A stretch of DNA of 47,828 nt. It comes from a virus. The position numbers and the translations under genes are program-made. Below, one piece after another: positions 4,181-23,973 of the stretch (its first letter is position 1; each line of letters starts with the position of its first letter). Location of the stretch: positions 1 through 47,828 of the IMG/VR virus record IMGVR_UViG_3300044798_000079, one strand, 5' to 3'. The notes beneath the pieces were generated by a model. The model saw only the letters and a program-made list of their open reading frames with translations. It searched no databases and had not been told where the DNA came from.

Positions 4181-4588
4181 CTAACTCTTCTCGATTAATA
4201 TCGAGTAATCCACCGCCCAATGACGCACTCCCTTCCCTTCAGGTGTTATGATATCTTCGAACATTGTAGTTAGATTTTCCCGCGTCATTCTCAACAAAAT
4301 ATTGTTTGTGATCGTTAAGGAACATTCGTCAAAAAGCGTATTTAAATGGGTGTAAATGTTAGTTATTTCGTCCATTGCCTTCGATGCAGAGAAGAGAGAA
4401 AATTGAATAAGAATATCTTCAAAGTTCTCCGTGAAAGTTTTGTCGGGCACACTTGATACAATGGAAAAAACGACATAAGGAAACCCCGTCTTTTGTGGAG
4501 CCTCATCCAGATAAATCCGCCCACCCACGGCAGTTGAAAGGGCCGAACTTATAGTTTTCCCATATATTGCTGTGAGCAAATTATTCAA
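4181..4588 (-). CDS. Tail completion/terminator-like protein (DUF3168 type)
   Basis: 135 residues. The pattern GRIYLDEAPQKTGFPYVVFSIVS, followed by a strand-rich half, is typical of DUF3168-like minor tail proteins, which cap the tail tube and mediate head-tail joining. The start is a TTG at 4588, just downstream of the purine-rich end of the lipoprotein gene; no ATG gives a full-length product. It precedes the tail-tube gene, fitting the role. Confidence 0.65.
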   Translation of the reverse strand: MNNLLTAIYGKTISSALSTAVGGRIYLDEAPQKTGFPYVVFSIVSSVPDKTFTENFEDILIQFSLFSASKAMDEITNIYTHLNTLFDECSLTITNNILLRMTRENLTTMFEDIITPEGKGVRHWAVDYSILIEKS

Positions 4589-4591
4589 CCT

Positions 4592-4816
4592 CTATTTCCT
4601 CTCCCTCTCCAGACAATCCAGAAGTAGTTGCTTCTGATAAATAGCCTCTCCCATTAACTTCCTTAATGTCTCCTTTTTAACCACCATGCAATCAGAAGGG
4701 ACATCTTTATAAACTGTCTGGATGGTGGGAGTACAACTACAGATTATGTAGAGCAGAGATAAAATTGAGAAGAAGATTATCAAGCTCTTCCATTTCTTTT
4801 GCTTCAAGGATTCCAT
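4592..4816 (-). CDS. Small lipoprotein, candidate outer-membrane spanin (Rz1-like)
   Basis: 74 residues. A basic N-terminus (residues 5-10) is followed by a hydrophobic core (12-25) and the lipobox-like I-C-S-C with the lipidated cysteine at 28. The mature part is 46 residues and begins TPTIQTVYKD, reminiscent of Rz1-type proteins. The gene overlaps the preceding small gene (4737-4946) by 80 bp in another frame, the arrangement seen for nested Rz/Rz1 pairs. The site GGAG lies 8 bases before the ATG. The location in the lysis cassette supports the spanin reading. The inner-membrane partner is uncertain. Confidence 0.55.
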   Translation of the reverse strand: MESLKQKKWKSLIIFFSILSLLYIICSCTPTIQTVYKDVPSDCMVVKKETLRKLMGEAIYQKQLLLDCLERERK

Positions 4817-4946
4817 CCATTTTCTCCTTTATTTTATCGATCATTTCCTGTCGAGCAGCAAGTCTCCTTACAGGATCATCGATATATTTATCCACCATCT
4901 GTAATCCTACTCCAACAACTGTAGCTATAGCTCCCACTGTTCCCAT
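4737..4946 (-). CDS. Small protein of the lysis cassette, possible inner-membrane partner
   Basis: 69 residues from the ATG at 4946, chosen because TGGAGGC lies 6 bases upstream; an upstream ATG at 5024 would overlap the holin. The N-terminus is moderately hydrophobic (GAIATVVGVGLQMV, about residues 4-17) and could insert in the membrane. The rest is charged and helical and may form a coiled coil. Its 3' end overlaps the lipoprotein gene. The role as an i-spanin-like partner is only an inference from this layout. Confidence 0.6.
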   Translation of the reverse strand: MGTVGAIATVVGVGLQMVDKYIDDPVRRLAARQEMIDKIKEKMDGILEAKEMEELDNLLLNFISALHNL

Positions 4947-4960
4947 CTGACGCCTCCAGT

Positions 4961-5140
4961 TTACTTCCCAACAATCAATGTACTCTTGCTGGTAAAGTAG
5001 GCAATCACCGCTCCGCCCACGCACACTGCAAAAGTCATCCAGTTAAAGGGTTGAGATGATAGATAGGCTCTTAATGGCTCCAGGATGAATAACAAAGCAC
5101 CTATCACATTCGTAATGATGTTAATTAATTTAGGGGTCAT
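4961..5140 (-). CDS. Two-TM holin (putative)
   Basis: 59 residues. Two hydrophobic segments, about residues 5-20 (INIITNVIGALLFIL region) and 34-50 (WMTFAVCVGGAVIAYF region), are separated by a short hydrophilic turn, with a short basic tail (SK..GK). This is the size and topology of small class II or III holins. A strong ribosome site (GGAGGTGA) lies 5 bases before the ATG. It sits in the lysis region between the phosphatase and the lipoprotein pair. Confidence 0.7.
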   Translation of the reverse strand: MTPKLINIITNVIGALLFILEPLRAYLSSQPFNWMTFAVCVGGAVIAYFTSKSTLIVGK

Positions 5141-5145
5141 TTATA

Positions 5146-5559
5146 TCACCTCCTCTCCGAAAGATTTTCAAGATAATTCCTAAATACTGGATTCACCAGT
5201 GCTCCTGGCCTTTTCTTTTGAATCAGTTTGACTGCCTCGATTCCACTCATTTCATCCAGCCAGAGGATACACCCATTAACCAAACCCGATCTGTTCCTTC
5301 CCATCGAGCAATGGACTAAAACTGTCTGACCTGCCTTCCACGCATTAAACCCATAGCGAGCCACGTTCCACAGATTTCTTTCATCTGGCAACCAAGGCAT
5401 ATCGAGAATATGCCAGTAGAGATAAGACTTGATATTCAATTCATATAGCGTATCAAATCCGCCTTCTAAATCAATGACTGTATCCATCTCTTTCACAGCA
5501 TTAGGATCATCTATCTTTGTACTCTGAAAGAGATTTGGTTTGATTTCAAAGATTTCCAT
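5146..5559 (-). CDS. Dual-specificity/tyrosine phosphatase-like protein
   Basis: Contains the complete cysteine-phosphatase signature HCSMGRNRSG (HC-x5-R), with the nucleophile Cys followed six residues later by Arg. The upstream strand-loop (DTVIDLEGG) and the aspartate loop (HILDMPWLPDE) are those of dual-specificity phosphatases and could supply the general acid. The start at 5559 (137 residues) is preferred, with AGGT 5 bases upstream and no overlap. An ATG at 5595 would abut its own GGAG. A phosphatase inside a phage lysis region is unusual. It might dephosphorylate a host protein or an RNA 5' end; the substrate cannot be told. Confidence 0.8.
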   Translation of the reverse strand: MEIFEIKPNLFQSTKIDDPNAVKEMDTVIDLEGGFDTLYELNIKSYLYWHILDMPWLPDERNLWNVARYGFNAWKAGQTVLVHCSMGRNRSGLVNGCILWLDEMSGIEAVKLIQKKRPGALVNPVFRNYLENLSERR

Positions 5560-5560
5560 A

Positions 5561-5755
5561 TTACCTAAAATTATCTCCCGGACAATTGATTTCATCTCCT
5601 TTCTGTTTTGATTTTTCCTTTAAATATCCAATCGCCATTAAAATCGCCTCACTTTCTTGTTTATTATATCCAATTTTTCTGAGGTCACGATTGAATGCCA
5701 TTCTCTGAACATTACCAAGAATTTTTTGAATATCCTGATTTGAAATTAGATTCAT
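5561..5755 (-). CDS. Small hypothetical protein
   Basis: 64 residues, charged and helical, not recognised. It ends two bases before the preferred start of the phosphatase gene and is probably co-transcribed with it. The nearest ribosome-like site (AGAAGGAA) is some 15 bases before the ATG, so the start or the gene itself is less certain. Confidence 0.5.
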   Translation of the reverse strand: MNLISNQDIQKILGNVQRMAFNRDLRKIGYNKQESEAILMAIGYLKEKSKQKGDEINCPGDNFR

Positions 5756-20101: not shown

Positions 20102-20974
20102 TCACTGACATATCTCACATGGCACGGCAGGGATAAGGGCTATCTTCCCCATCAAATCACATTGCCAGATGATATCCCTCATCCTTGTCATAGACTTATG
20201 TAAAAATATATTGTTATTTTTTTTCTCAATTTCGTTATCCATTTCTACAATCCTTTGATAGTCTTCTGGATACTCACTCTTCATTAATTCATATTCATCA
20301 TCATGTTGTAATGGACACATGATACAGGATGACCTAGCAGGATCGGGCCAACCAAGAGAGCGGATAAGGAATAGACATTGATAACGAGAGAAATTCATAT
20401 CAATCAAAGGATAATGATTCGATATCCAATCAAGATTTGATTGTTTCTGCCTTTGACTTTCGTCTGTTGAAATGCCTATCCAACTCTTAGCCCTTTTAAC
20501 CCCGATTGAACGCAGGTATTGACGCATGAGTGCAACCTTCCATGTCCCACTGCACATCGTGTAGAGCCGTTGGATATTACCATCTTCTGTTTTTTTAAAA
20601 GCAGGGATAACAATCATCCCAGATTCATTGAACAATTTATTGTCGGGTGTATTGAGCGTTTTAAAATCAACTCCAACTTTATTACATGCCGGAATCAATA
20701 CCCTTCGAGCATAATCAAGCGTTCCGTGCTTTTCGTAACCAGTATCAACCATAAGAACTAAATCTGGCTTTGGTAATTCTCCCTTATATACCATCGCAAT
20801 CATGGCTGTTGATTGAACACCTCCACCGCAAGAGAGGACATTGAATTCCTTAACTCCGTCCATTCTAATTCGTTGTTTATCTTTGTTGCTGCAAGCACGA
20901 GAGCAATAATTAACAATAGATCTCTCCGTGTTAAATTCTTTAGAGCATTCTGGATTTAGGCATATTTTTTTCAT
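20102..20974 (-). CDS. PAPS-reductase-like PP-loop ATP pyrophosphatase with N-terminal zinc finger
   Basis: 290 residues from the ATG at 20974. The N-terminus (CLNPECSKEF ... YCSRACSNKD) is a four-Cys finger. Then comes the PP-loop SCGGGVQSTAM and the family pattern MVDTGYEKHGT. Later cysteines (SSCIMCP; CEICQ at the end) may bind a metal. Such proteins are frequent in phages and activate a substrate by adenylation. A sulfur-transfer or DNA/RNA-modification role, by analogy with DndC, is possible but unproven. It overlaps the HNH gene start-to-stop and precedes the terminase. Confidence 0.8.
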   Translation of the reverse strand: MKKICLNPECSKEFNTERSIVNYCSRACSNKDKQRIRMDGVKEFNVLSCGGGVQSTAMIAMVYKGELPKPDLVLMVDTGYEKHGTLDYARRVLIPACNKVGVDFKTLNTPDNKLFNESGMIVIPAFKKTEDGNIQRLYTMCSGTWKVALMRQYLRSIGVKRAKSWIGISTDESQRQKQSNLDWISNHYPLIDMNFSRYQCLFLIRSLGWPDPARSSCIMCPLQHDDEYELMKSEYPEDYQRIVEMDNEIEKKNNNIFLHKSMTRMRDIIWQCDLMGKIALIPAVPCEICQ

Positions 20975-21305
20975 CTGGTTCAATTAAATCCTGGTGAAAA
21001 TTAGGTGTATGACATGAAGCGCACACACCCTCGCCATTGTTTAGATCGATGTTCTTCCAGTTATTATCTTTGTGATGTGCTACTGTTGCGGGGGTGAGAA
21101 TTCCTTTTCTTAAACAGGACTGACACAGGGGATCACGATGTAGAATTGCTTCTCTCCAACGCTTGTGACCATTGGATAGATAGTGCTTTTGCTGTTCCTT
21201 TTCTTCAGGTATGTAGAGTCTAATATGCTTGGGTCTATGGGTAGGACACCACTTTCCTTCGGTGAGTAGTTCAGGACAACGAGGTGAAGCACATTGCTTA
21301 TACAA
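20940..21305 (-). CDS. HNH endonuclease (packaging-associated)
   Basis: 121 residues. The ββα-metal core reads CQSCLRKGILTPATVAHHKDNNW ... NGEGVCASCHTPNFH, with the HH pair and two CxxC metal knuckles. An extra N-terminal finger (C-x4-C ... CPTH) is present. The only full-length start is TTG at 21305. HNH proteins next to the large terminase act with it in cutting at cos in HK97-like phages, which fits here. Confidence 0.88.
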   Translation of the reverse strand: MYKQCASPRCPELLTEGKWCPTHRPKHIRLYIPEEKEQQKHYLSNGHKRWREAILHRDPLCQSCLRKGILTPATVAHHKDNNWKNIDLNNGEGVCASCHTPNFHQDLIEPDEKNMPKSRML

Positions 21306-22048: not shown

Positions 22049-22156
22049 CGCATGTTGACCCTGGGTTTCAAATGGGAACTCGCTCGCACAACCCGACTGG
22101 GTTTCAGTTCAACCTTCGCTCGCACCTATACCTTGGGTTTCATGGGGGTAATCGCT
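22049..22156 (-). repeat. TIGR array A: three 36-bp guide-RNA units
   Basis: Exactly 108 bp = 3 x 36. Read on the minus strand each unit is AGCGA - 9 variable - TGAAACCCA - 9 variable - TGCG, where TGCG|AGCGA joins consecutive units. Variable pairs in order: TTACCCCCA/AGGTATAGG, AGGTTGAAC/GTCGGGTTG, GTTCCCATT/GGGTCAACA. The conserved blocks are perfect in all three units apart from the outer edges, while the 9-mers are unrelated. This is the two-spacer architecture of TIGR arrays, whose RNAs are 36 nt. It starts 8 bp after the stop of the coiled-coil gene and is probably on the same transcript as array B and the tas gene. That these are guide RNAs is inferred from the architecture and the adjacent Tas-like gene. 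Confidence 0.88.
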
Positions 22157-22164
22157 TTATCCCA

Positions 22165-22815
22165 TTACAACGTAGCAGAACGTTGTATCGTGTTATTATG
22201 TTTATCAAATAGCTTCCTGATGCTGGTAACTGTTTGAGCTGTTACCTTGAGCTTTTCGATCTGCTCATTGAGTTCATTGATCTTTTTCATGGCTACCCGT
22301 AGAGCTTCTTTCGTCTTGTCATGTGTTGCCTTTTCATGTTCATACATGGCCTTCCAGTCGGTAATTTCCCTTTTTACCTTTGGCGTTTTCCGGTACTTCT
22401 CGATAATGGTCTCCATGTTTTTTCTCGACATTGGTGTTTTATGTGCAGCAGCCTCATGTTGAATTTCAGAAATAACTTTGTCAACCTTCATCCCTCCGCA
22501 CACCCTATCAATCTTTGCTACCATTCCTACTCCATATTCGATGGCATAAGTGGGGAACTTAGAAAATGCCCTTACATTTTCTCGATATGTTCCTTCCCGA
22601 ATAGTAAACCGATCTTCAAGGTAAGCCCAGAATGAGGACTTTTTGTAATGTGGATTTTCCTTGTAGCGGTAGCTTGTTCTCAAATATTCAAGGCATTCGT
22701 ACATTTCCTTCTGATGTTCCCTTGATAGAATGTGCAACTTCTCAATCTTGGTTTCGAGTTCTGTGATACTTACACCATCATACTTTGTTACTTTTTTTTC
22801 TTCTTGCTTTTCCAT
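22165..22815 (-). CDS. Coiled-coil protein encoded between the two TIGR arrays
   Basis: 216 residues. The N-terminal half has a helix-rich domain with SFWAYLEDRFTIREGTYRENVRAFSKFP, loosely like the HTH-type segment (EEYCKERWDLKRQRAYELIGA) of the plus-strand gene at 29126. Residues about 145-200 form a long charged coiled coil. A strong ribosome site (GAGGAGAACTC) follows the end of array B, and the stop is 8 bp before array A. Position makes it a candidate accessory of the TIGR locus, or simply a phage DNA-binding protein into whose flanks arrays were placed. No family is recognised with certainty. Confidence 0.75.
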   Translation of the reverse strand: MEKQEEKKVTKYDGVSITELETKIEKLHILSREHQKEMYECLEYLRTSYRYKENPHYKKSSFWAYLEDRFTIREGTYRENVRAFSKFPTYAIEYGVGMVAKIDRVCGGMKVDKVISEIQHEAAAHKTPMSRKNMETIIEKYRKTPKVKREITDWKAMYEHEKATHDKTKEALRVAMKKINELNEQIEKLKVTAQTVTSIRKLFDKHNNTIQRSATL

Positions 22816-22842
22816 TTGAGTTCTCCTCTCTTATTTTAAGTT

Positions 22843-23130
22843 CGCAAACTCATCATGGGTTTCATCTTTTCTCTCGCTCGCATCCCAATACTGGGTTTCA
22901 AACGTGGAGTCGCTCGCAGAATTTATTTAGGTTTCACGTCAACTTTCGCTCGCATTCTTTTATTGGGTTTCAAGAAGTCCGTCGCTCGCACACGTTCTTT
23001 GGATTTCAGCATTTCAATCGCTCATCTTTTACGGCCTCGCCTCAATATTGGGAGGGGACGCAAGGCGGTAATGGGTTTTATGGGCCTCCTCGCTCGCATT
23101 ATTCACCTGGATTTTAAACGGTTTTTCGCT
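22843..23130 (-). repeat. TIGR array B: eight 36-bp units, one degenerate
   Basis: 288 bp = 8 x 36 in strict register. From the 5' end (minus strand) units 1-2 (23130-23059) have loops TAAAATCCA and TAAAACCCA and lie inside the tas coding region. Unit 3 (23058-23023) is degenerate but exactly 36 bp, with TGAGGCGAG at the loop position; it contains the tas stop codon. Units 4-8 (23022-22843) have the edge TGCGAGCGA and the loop TGAAACCCA, with single changes in two loops. Variable pairs: AAAACCGTT/GGTGAATAA, GGAGGCCCA/TTACCGCCT, then TTGAAATGC/AAGAACGTG, CGGACTTCT/ATAAAAGAA, AAGTTGACG/AATAAATTC, CTCCACGTT/GTATTGGGA, GAGAAAAGA/TGATGAGTT. The geometry is edge 9, spacer 9, loop 9, spacer 9. Confidence 0.9.
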
Positions 23131-23973
23131 CTCTTCCTCCCAGTAAAAAGGCTGAATTATATTGGTATGTCCCATCAATGCTCCCGCATAGGGCTCTGAT
23201 ACTGGCTTCCCATCAAGAGTCCTTGCCACTGTCCACCAATGAGCAAGAAATATTTTAACCACTTCATTCTTTGCCGCATTATGGACATGACCCTTTGACC
23301 ATTCAGGATGATTCTTTGCATGCTTTGCCTTTCTCAAAAGAAGCAGGGCTTTATACGGATGATCATCTTGTTGCCTATTGAATTGATCTCCGATATGAAA
23401 ACCCAATGTTCTGCCAACTGTTGACCAATTAGACAAAACACCCTTTTTTCGCTTCGGCATAACGCCATCGATTGTATGCCTTCCCATATAAGCCCACCAT
23501 TTCGATATTGTTGGGAAGTCCTTATATTCGAGGCGATGCACCAAAAGACCCTCTTTTGCTACCTTCTTACAATCAACACAAGCCAATGTCTTTATTGTTT
23601 TCCCTGTTTCGGTTTGCTTTTCTTTTTTCTCCAATTTCCCTCCGCAATCTTTACAGACAGGGATAAATCGATAATAAAACAGGATGATCATCTGGGCCGC
23701 TATGAACGGGCCAATCCCTGATATTTTCTTTGCCCAGGTTTCCCATACATCCCACTGTTTCAATTCTTTTTCGATCTCTCTGGTAATCCGTCCCTTTACT
23801 GTTTCCAATCCTTCCGTCTTATCTTGTCCCTTTAAAAGTGTATCAAATTCCTCATTCCTTTCTTCCCCTGGCAGAGATTGAAGTCTCTGTTTCGTTGATG
23901 CAATTAATTGGGTTATACCTGCATACGTTCTCACCAGAAAATTCAAATACTTGATCCCTGCTTCGTTTGTCAT
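23029..23973 (-). CDS. tasA: Tas-like protein (TasA type; IS110/Nop-related, no nuclease)
   Basis: 314 residues, ribosome site AAAGGAGGAG 6 bases before the ATG. Residues 1-80 are a long helical segment. KISGIGPFIAAQMI (83-96) and DFPTISKWWAYMGR (152-165) are the helix-hairpin elements of the C-terminal domain of IS110-type transposases, which is structurally close to the Nop domain. A zinc-ribbon insert (Cys107, 110, 132, 135) separates them. Residues 175-255 continue as the basic helical core (SNWSTVGRTLGFHIGDQFNR; HVHNAAKNEVVKIFLAHWW). There is no DEDD/RuvC or HNH domain. With two 36-bp dual-spacer arrays alongside, the best reading is the guide-RNA-binding Tas protein of a TIGR system, TasA type. 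The last 33 residues (282-314) are translated from array units 1-3. An IS110 transposase is the likely automatic annotation but lacks catalytic domain and element ends. Confidence 0.82.
   Translation of the reverse strand: MTNEAGIKYLNFLVRTYAGITQLIASTKQRLQSLPGEERNEEFDTLLKGQDKTEGLETVKGRITREIEKELKQWDVWETWAKKISGIGPFIAAQMIILFYYRFIPVCKDCGGKLEKKEKQTETGKTIKTLACVDCKKVAKEGLLVHRLEYKDFPTISKWWAYMGRHTIDGVMPKRKKGVLSNWSTVGRTLGFHIGDQFNRQQDDHPYKALLLLRKAKHAKNHPEWSKGHVHNAAKNEVVKIFLAHWWTVARTLDGKPVSEPYAGALMGHTNIIQPFYWEEESEKPFKIQVNNASEEAHKTHYRLASPPNIEARP

Follow-up and report, generated by a model that had tools for sequence, protein, structure and literature searches.

A nuclease-free TIGR-TasA locus in a temperate tailed phage and complementarity at the ends of its paired spacers

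What might an IS110/Nop-like protein do when it carries no nuclease and is flanked by short repeat arrays? The question is raised by a 314-residue protein encoded at 23029-23973 in the window, the whole 47.8-kb virus record IMGVR_UViG_3300044798_000079 (47,828 nt), which has terminase, portal, prohead protease, major head protein and tyrosine integrase genes and is a temperate tailed phage. The protein is a TasA-type member of the TIGR-Tas systems, and in its arrays and those of its relatives the ninth bases of the two spacers of a unit (A9 and B9) are complementary far more often than expected, a new and testable result.

A solo-Nop protein adjoining dual-repeat arrays

The initial annotation proposed a TasA-type effector at these coordinates without naming a strand; the open reading frame is present on the minus strand and contains both of the motifs quoted for it, KISGIGPFIAAQM and FPTISKWWAYMGR. 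A sequence search of solved structures gives TIGR-TasR (PDB code 9mty) as the closest match (E 8.5e-27), with TasR and TasH being the sole matches, and a profile search gives 9mty at E 2.8e-42 and adds two weak zinc-finger matches. The NCBIfam model TIGR_Tas_endo (NF052498) is matched with 100.2 bits, just over the cut-off of 100, and PADLOC gave no match for TasA. The predicted TasA model (pLDDT, the predicted local distance difference test score, of 77) superposes onto TasR with Z 21.2 and a root-mean-square deviation of 2.4 across 201 residues, onto TasH with Z about 20 and onto IS621 with Z about 15, so that the Nop/IS110 similarity to be looked for in a fold prediction is present. The N terminus of TasA coincides with the point where the nuclease domains of TasR (RuvC) and TasH stop: model residue 4 aligns with TasR residue 110 and TasH residue 65, and IS621 residue ~124 aligns with model residue 3-4, with only two residues upstream of residue 3. 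The structural alignment leaves no N-terminal room for a nuclease and the protein matches no Pfam family at all, so that a DEDD, HNH or RuvC domain is absent, as had been claimed; the IS110-type N-terminal DEDD catalytic domain is lacking. TasA has been defined as a solo-Nop Tas protein (Faure et al. 2025, PMC12045711), and a protein that begins where the TasR and TasH nuclease domains end is therefore a TasA in that sense. Target binding or silencing instead of cutting would be a reasonable role for such an effector, as was also suggested by Faure et al. (PMC12045711).

An IS110-type transposase remnant, stripped of its catalytic domain and serving no guide function, would share the Nop-like fold with IS621, and the old database label is indeed transposase, carried by PHROG 4285 as the initial annotation had foreseen. 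However, the fit to TasR is better than that to IS621, the protein is intact and, along with arrays, conserved across over 40 diverse loci, tasA is single-copy in the record, and no inverted transposon ends are seen beside the open reading frame, which leaves this explanation with a close to negligible probability.

The array unit has a 36-nt period composed of an edge repeat TGCGAGCGA, a 9-nt spacer A, a loop repeat TGAAACCCA and a 9-nt spacer B, with one spacer pair (A/B) reading CTCCACGTT/GTATTGGGA. The loop-N9-edge pattern with up to three mismatches occurs 8 times on the minus strand compared with 0.01 expected from dinucleotide shuffles, and the flanking arrays of the initial annotation are thus real. 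They consist of adjoining dual repeats, alternating and 8-12 nt long, with 9-nt spacers and truncated edge repeats at both ends. The array, the 9mty and NCBIfam matches and the TasR fold together place the protein among the TIGR-Tas effectors, the missing nuclease making it a TasA; TIGR-Tas membership is secure, and the locus adds one more member to an already known kind. All of its parts lie on the minus strand, with ten units in total.

23029..23973, minus strand: tasA, nuclease-free Nop-domain effector, 314 amino acids (sequence, profile, fold and NCBIfam matches)
23569..23655, minus strand: zinc-ribbon insertion within the TasA Nop domain, C107-x2-C110 ... C132-x2-C135 (four Cys invariant in 11/11 relatives)
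23063..23134, minus strand: two degenerate TIGR units within the tasA frame, at its 3' end, loop repeats TAAAATCCA and TAAAACCCA
22838..23026, minus strand: TIGR array 1, five units, in the interval between tasA and the partner gene
22165..22815, minus strand: candidate TasParB-like partner gene, 216 amino acids, helical with a coiled-coil C terminus (homologs in 24/28 tasA-bearing virus records; structurally a weak match to the DNA-binding domains of ParB/SopB)
22049..22160, minus strand: TIGR array 2, three units, past the partner gene

The zinc ribbon occupies a place where TasR has about 5 residues, and the paired CxxC motifs are absent from the more distant Tas proteins (L199-L210); the insertion in TasA is new compared with known systems.

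Spacer ends and guide units inside tasA

Complementarity between spacer positions was counted in an initial set of 287 units from 25 non-redundant loci and a replication set of 161 units from 13 further loci, two records with ambiguously called repeats (G009 and G012) being excluded from the statistics. A9 complements B9 within one unit in 148/287 cases compared with 76 expected (p 2e-19), and its Z of 8.5 is by far the largest of the 81 complement position pairs, the rest being at or below 2.5. The replication set gives 92/161 compared with 46 expected (p 7e-14) and includes a locus with other repeats (L205) in which 22/31 units are complementary. The rule holds in the zinc-ribbon TasA class (198/372, 102 expected, p 8e-26) and in six loci with other TasA proteins (40/64, 18 expected), whereas the TasR locus L206 is at chance (2/12, 2.2 expected; Fisher p 0.015 for TasA versus TasR). 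Nine of the ten window units follow it (p 5e-5), and complementarity is above chance in 30/31 window-type loci. Faure et al. reported no obvious spacer covariation (PMC12045711), a published statement that the A9/B9 rule contradicts.

A one-base-pair overlap of spacer A and the reverse complement of spacer B at the target centre would yield this rule, and the covariation fits tandem-spacer DNA targeting. The preferred but unproven interpretation is that TasA spacers often overlap by one central target base pair, with a site of 17 bp and not 18. Alternatively, A9 and B9 could form a Watson-Crick pair within the guide RNA (tigRNA), closing a figure-eight at the spacer ends with no target overlap; RNA pairing would show exactly such complementarity, and both bases are placed 5' of box D at pseudo-symmetric positions (PMC12045711). 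Wobble pairs would be expected of an RNA pair, yet G-U shows no excess in either set, its share of the non-Watson-Crick units being at chance (29/139, 21% compared with 19%; replication 12/69, 17% compared with 17%), which argues against RNA-RNA pairing. All nine spacer bases are moreover DNA-paired in the TasR structure (PMC12045711), and a pair internal to the tigRNA is an unlikely, if still appreciable, alternative to the 17-bp overlap.

One to five TIGR units precede the tasA stop codon in the window and in related records G001, G002, G003, G011, G018, G019/G020 and G022. In the five tails that were read (window, G001, G002, G003 and G011) these units sit in frame with no stops in the repeats, which encode tail residues such as ASE..IETQ. 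First guide units placed in frame within the tasA gene are likewise new compared with known systems. Tas-dependent maturation cleaves edge repeats, so guide production from the in-gene units would break the tasA message. It is an even call whether TasA follows a hidden guide rule, in which tigRNA spacers derive from, or undergo selection against, a 17-bp site with the central base pair in common, together with a built-in brake in which the guides within tasA destroy its message on maturation.

Targets, spacer turnover and the mobile cassette

The relatives gathered are 28 IMG/VR records and four contigs of metagenome-assembled genomes (Smithella, Desulfobacula, Desulfobacteraceae and a Methanoperedens bin), all with tasA, and 36-nt arrays adjoin tasA in every related contig but one truncated record. 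Within the window the best match to spacer A joined to the reverse complement of spacer B has 3 mismatches and lies in the array itself; elsewhere the best has 4. In 28 related contigs, gaps of 0-2 give 99 matches compared with 71-109 for shuffled spacers, and an overlap of -1 gives 63 two-mismatch matches compared with 40-69. IMG/VR scans with three window spacer pairs return 7, 0 and 3 exact matches; a rough estimate puts this near the chance level, and the contigs concerned have no homolog of the window proteins tested. Palindromic targets, in which A resembles B, are not enriched, and the apparent depletion arises largely from the A9/B9 rule. Two close loci (G023 and G024) have tasA DNA that is 91-95% identical (about 93%) and a partner region that is 84-90% identical, and share no identical spacer unit; full spacer replacement at such close identity is a further new observation. 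Fast spacer turnover and the lack of a match in the phage itself or in the related viruses examined make rival mobile DNA the most likely target. A system acting on the phage's own genome or close relatives, for gene regulation or as an integration aid, would suit the tyrosine integrase encoded by this phage and the DNA bend of about 180 degrees made by TasR (PMC12045711), but the phage contains no A plus reverse-complement-B site within two mismatches, and this, the absence of an excess over shuffled spacers in the related contigs and the fast spacer replacement render it quite improbable.

A unit of the closest virus relative (G003, minus-strand 6646) matches the window unit at 23063-23098 with spacers A and B swapped at 16/18 bases, a match found in 3/200 within-locus shuffles; symmetric action of the pair on a single conserved target would predict such a swap. 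The consensus of the swapped pair as a query gives one match, in an unrelated contig.

Most of the related viruses have no other tested gene in common with the window while their TasA proteins are still 38-80% identical, and tasA and the partner gene therefore appear, from this distribution, to travel as a cassette. The partner gene matches no Pfam or NCBIfam family, Pfam ParB included, and the ParB and SopB DNA-binding domains are among the best, weak matches of its predicted model (Z 4.3-6.3); it is probably the tasParB of Faure et al. (PMC12045711), whose loci have a ParB-like partner and arrays placed upstream, downstream or between the genes. A PAPS-reductase-like gene at window 20102-20983 (minus strand) lies near HNH and terminase genes.

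Searches further afield add several observations. The NCBIfam Tas model returns mostly IS110-length proteins from 395 Smithella-phylum genomes, and beyond an already known locus, L134 and possibly L135 resemble new array-bearing Tas loci. L205 carries an array of about 31 units at 4527-5575 with repeats AGCGAGTCA/AGAAAACCA, in which one half-spacer turns up repeatedly beside varying partners, as shuffling at the repeats might produce. The TasH array of a Salicola phage (L166) and the array of a Microcystis phage (L169) can be read as 10-nt repeats and 8-nt spacers with a mostly constant A in the ninth position. A tblastn search with TasR matches 76 Mycobacterium phage records, among them BPBiebs31, whose gp74 (L163 3459-4504), annotated as a transposase, is placed near repressor and superinfection-immunity genes; a dual-repeat array is absent, and a 338-nt upstream gap rich in stem-loops is possibly a stem-loop TIGR array.

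Proposed mechanism and comparison with known systems

The locus is very probably a TIGR-TasA system carried by this temperate tailed phage, in which a single tigRNA would guide binding of double-stranded DNA without cutting, often at 17-bp targets where the spacers overlap, on what is most likely rival mobile DNA. The genes tasA and the TasParB-like gene, with arrays 1 and 2, probably share a single transcript from which 36-nt tigRNAs would be cut. A TasA dimer with one tigRNA would bind double-stranded DNA, spacers A and B pairing with opposite strands, as published work has established for TasR and TasH. Having no nuclease, TasA would bind and probably bend the DNA without cutting it, and it may recruit the TasParB-like protein.

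Several points weigh against this picture. Only about half of the units are A9/B9-complementary, and with chance agreement subtracted the signal is in about a third; re-assortment of half-spacers, seen in L205, could explain the exceptions. Some neighbour-unit controls show a slight excess (73 compared with 57, p 0.012; 46 compared with 36.5, p 0.04), and the TasR comparison is one locus of 12 units. The TasParB label leans on weak structural matches, the best Z of 6.3 lying under the tool's own noise mark. The searches yielded no natural target, so that binding and the 17-bp geometry stand as proposals.

The closest known system, TIGR-TasA with tasParB (PMC12045711), has the same solo Nop protein, dual-repeat 36-nt array and ParB-like partner gene with varied array positions. 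The window differs in having 9-nt repeats in place of the 10-nt repeats described for tasParB arrays, a zinc ribbon, a feature not mentioned in the main text of PMC12045711, guide units that start in the tasA open reading frame, and spacer ends that covary. TIGR-TasR (PDB code 9mty) shares the Nop core, the box C/D-like edge and loop repeats and the 9-nt spacers. It differs in its RuvC nuclease at the N terminus and its lack of a zinc ribbon, and the one TasR locus tested has no A9/B9 complementarity. The IS110/IS621 bridge-RNA recombinases have a related RNA-binding fold; in contrast, the window has no DEDD domain, arrays in place of a bridge RNA and no transposon ends in sight.

The A9/B9 rule sets TasA apart from the TasR locus examined. 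The complete replacement of spacers between near-identical loci points to an arms race that proceeds without any known spacer-acquisition gene. The rule would also set the target register, 17 bp with a common centre, so that target searches and binding assays become specific.
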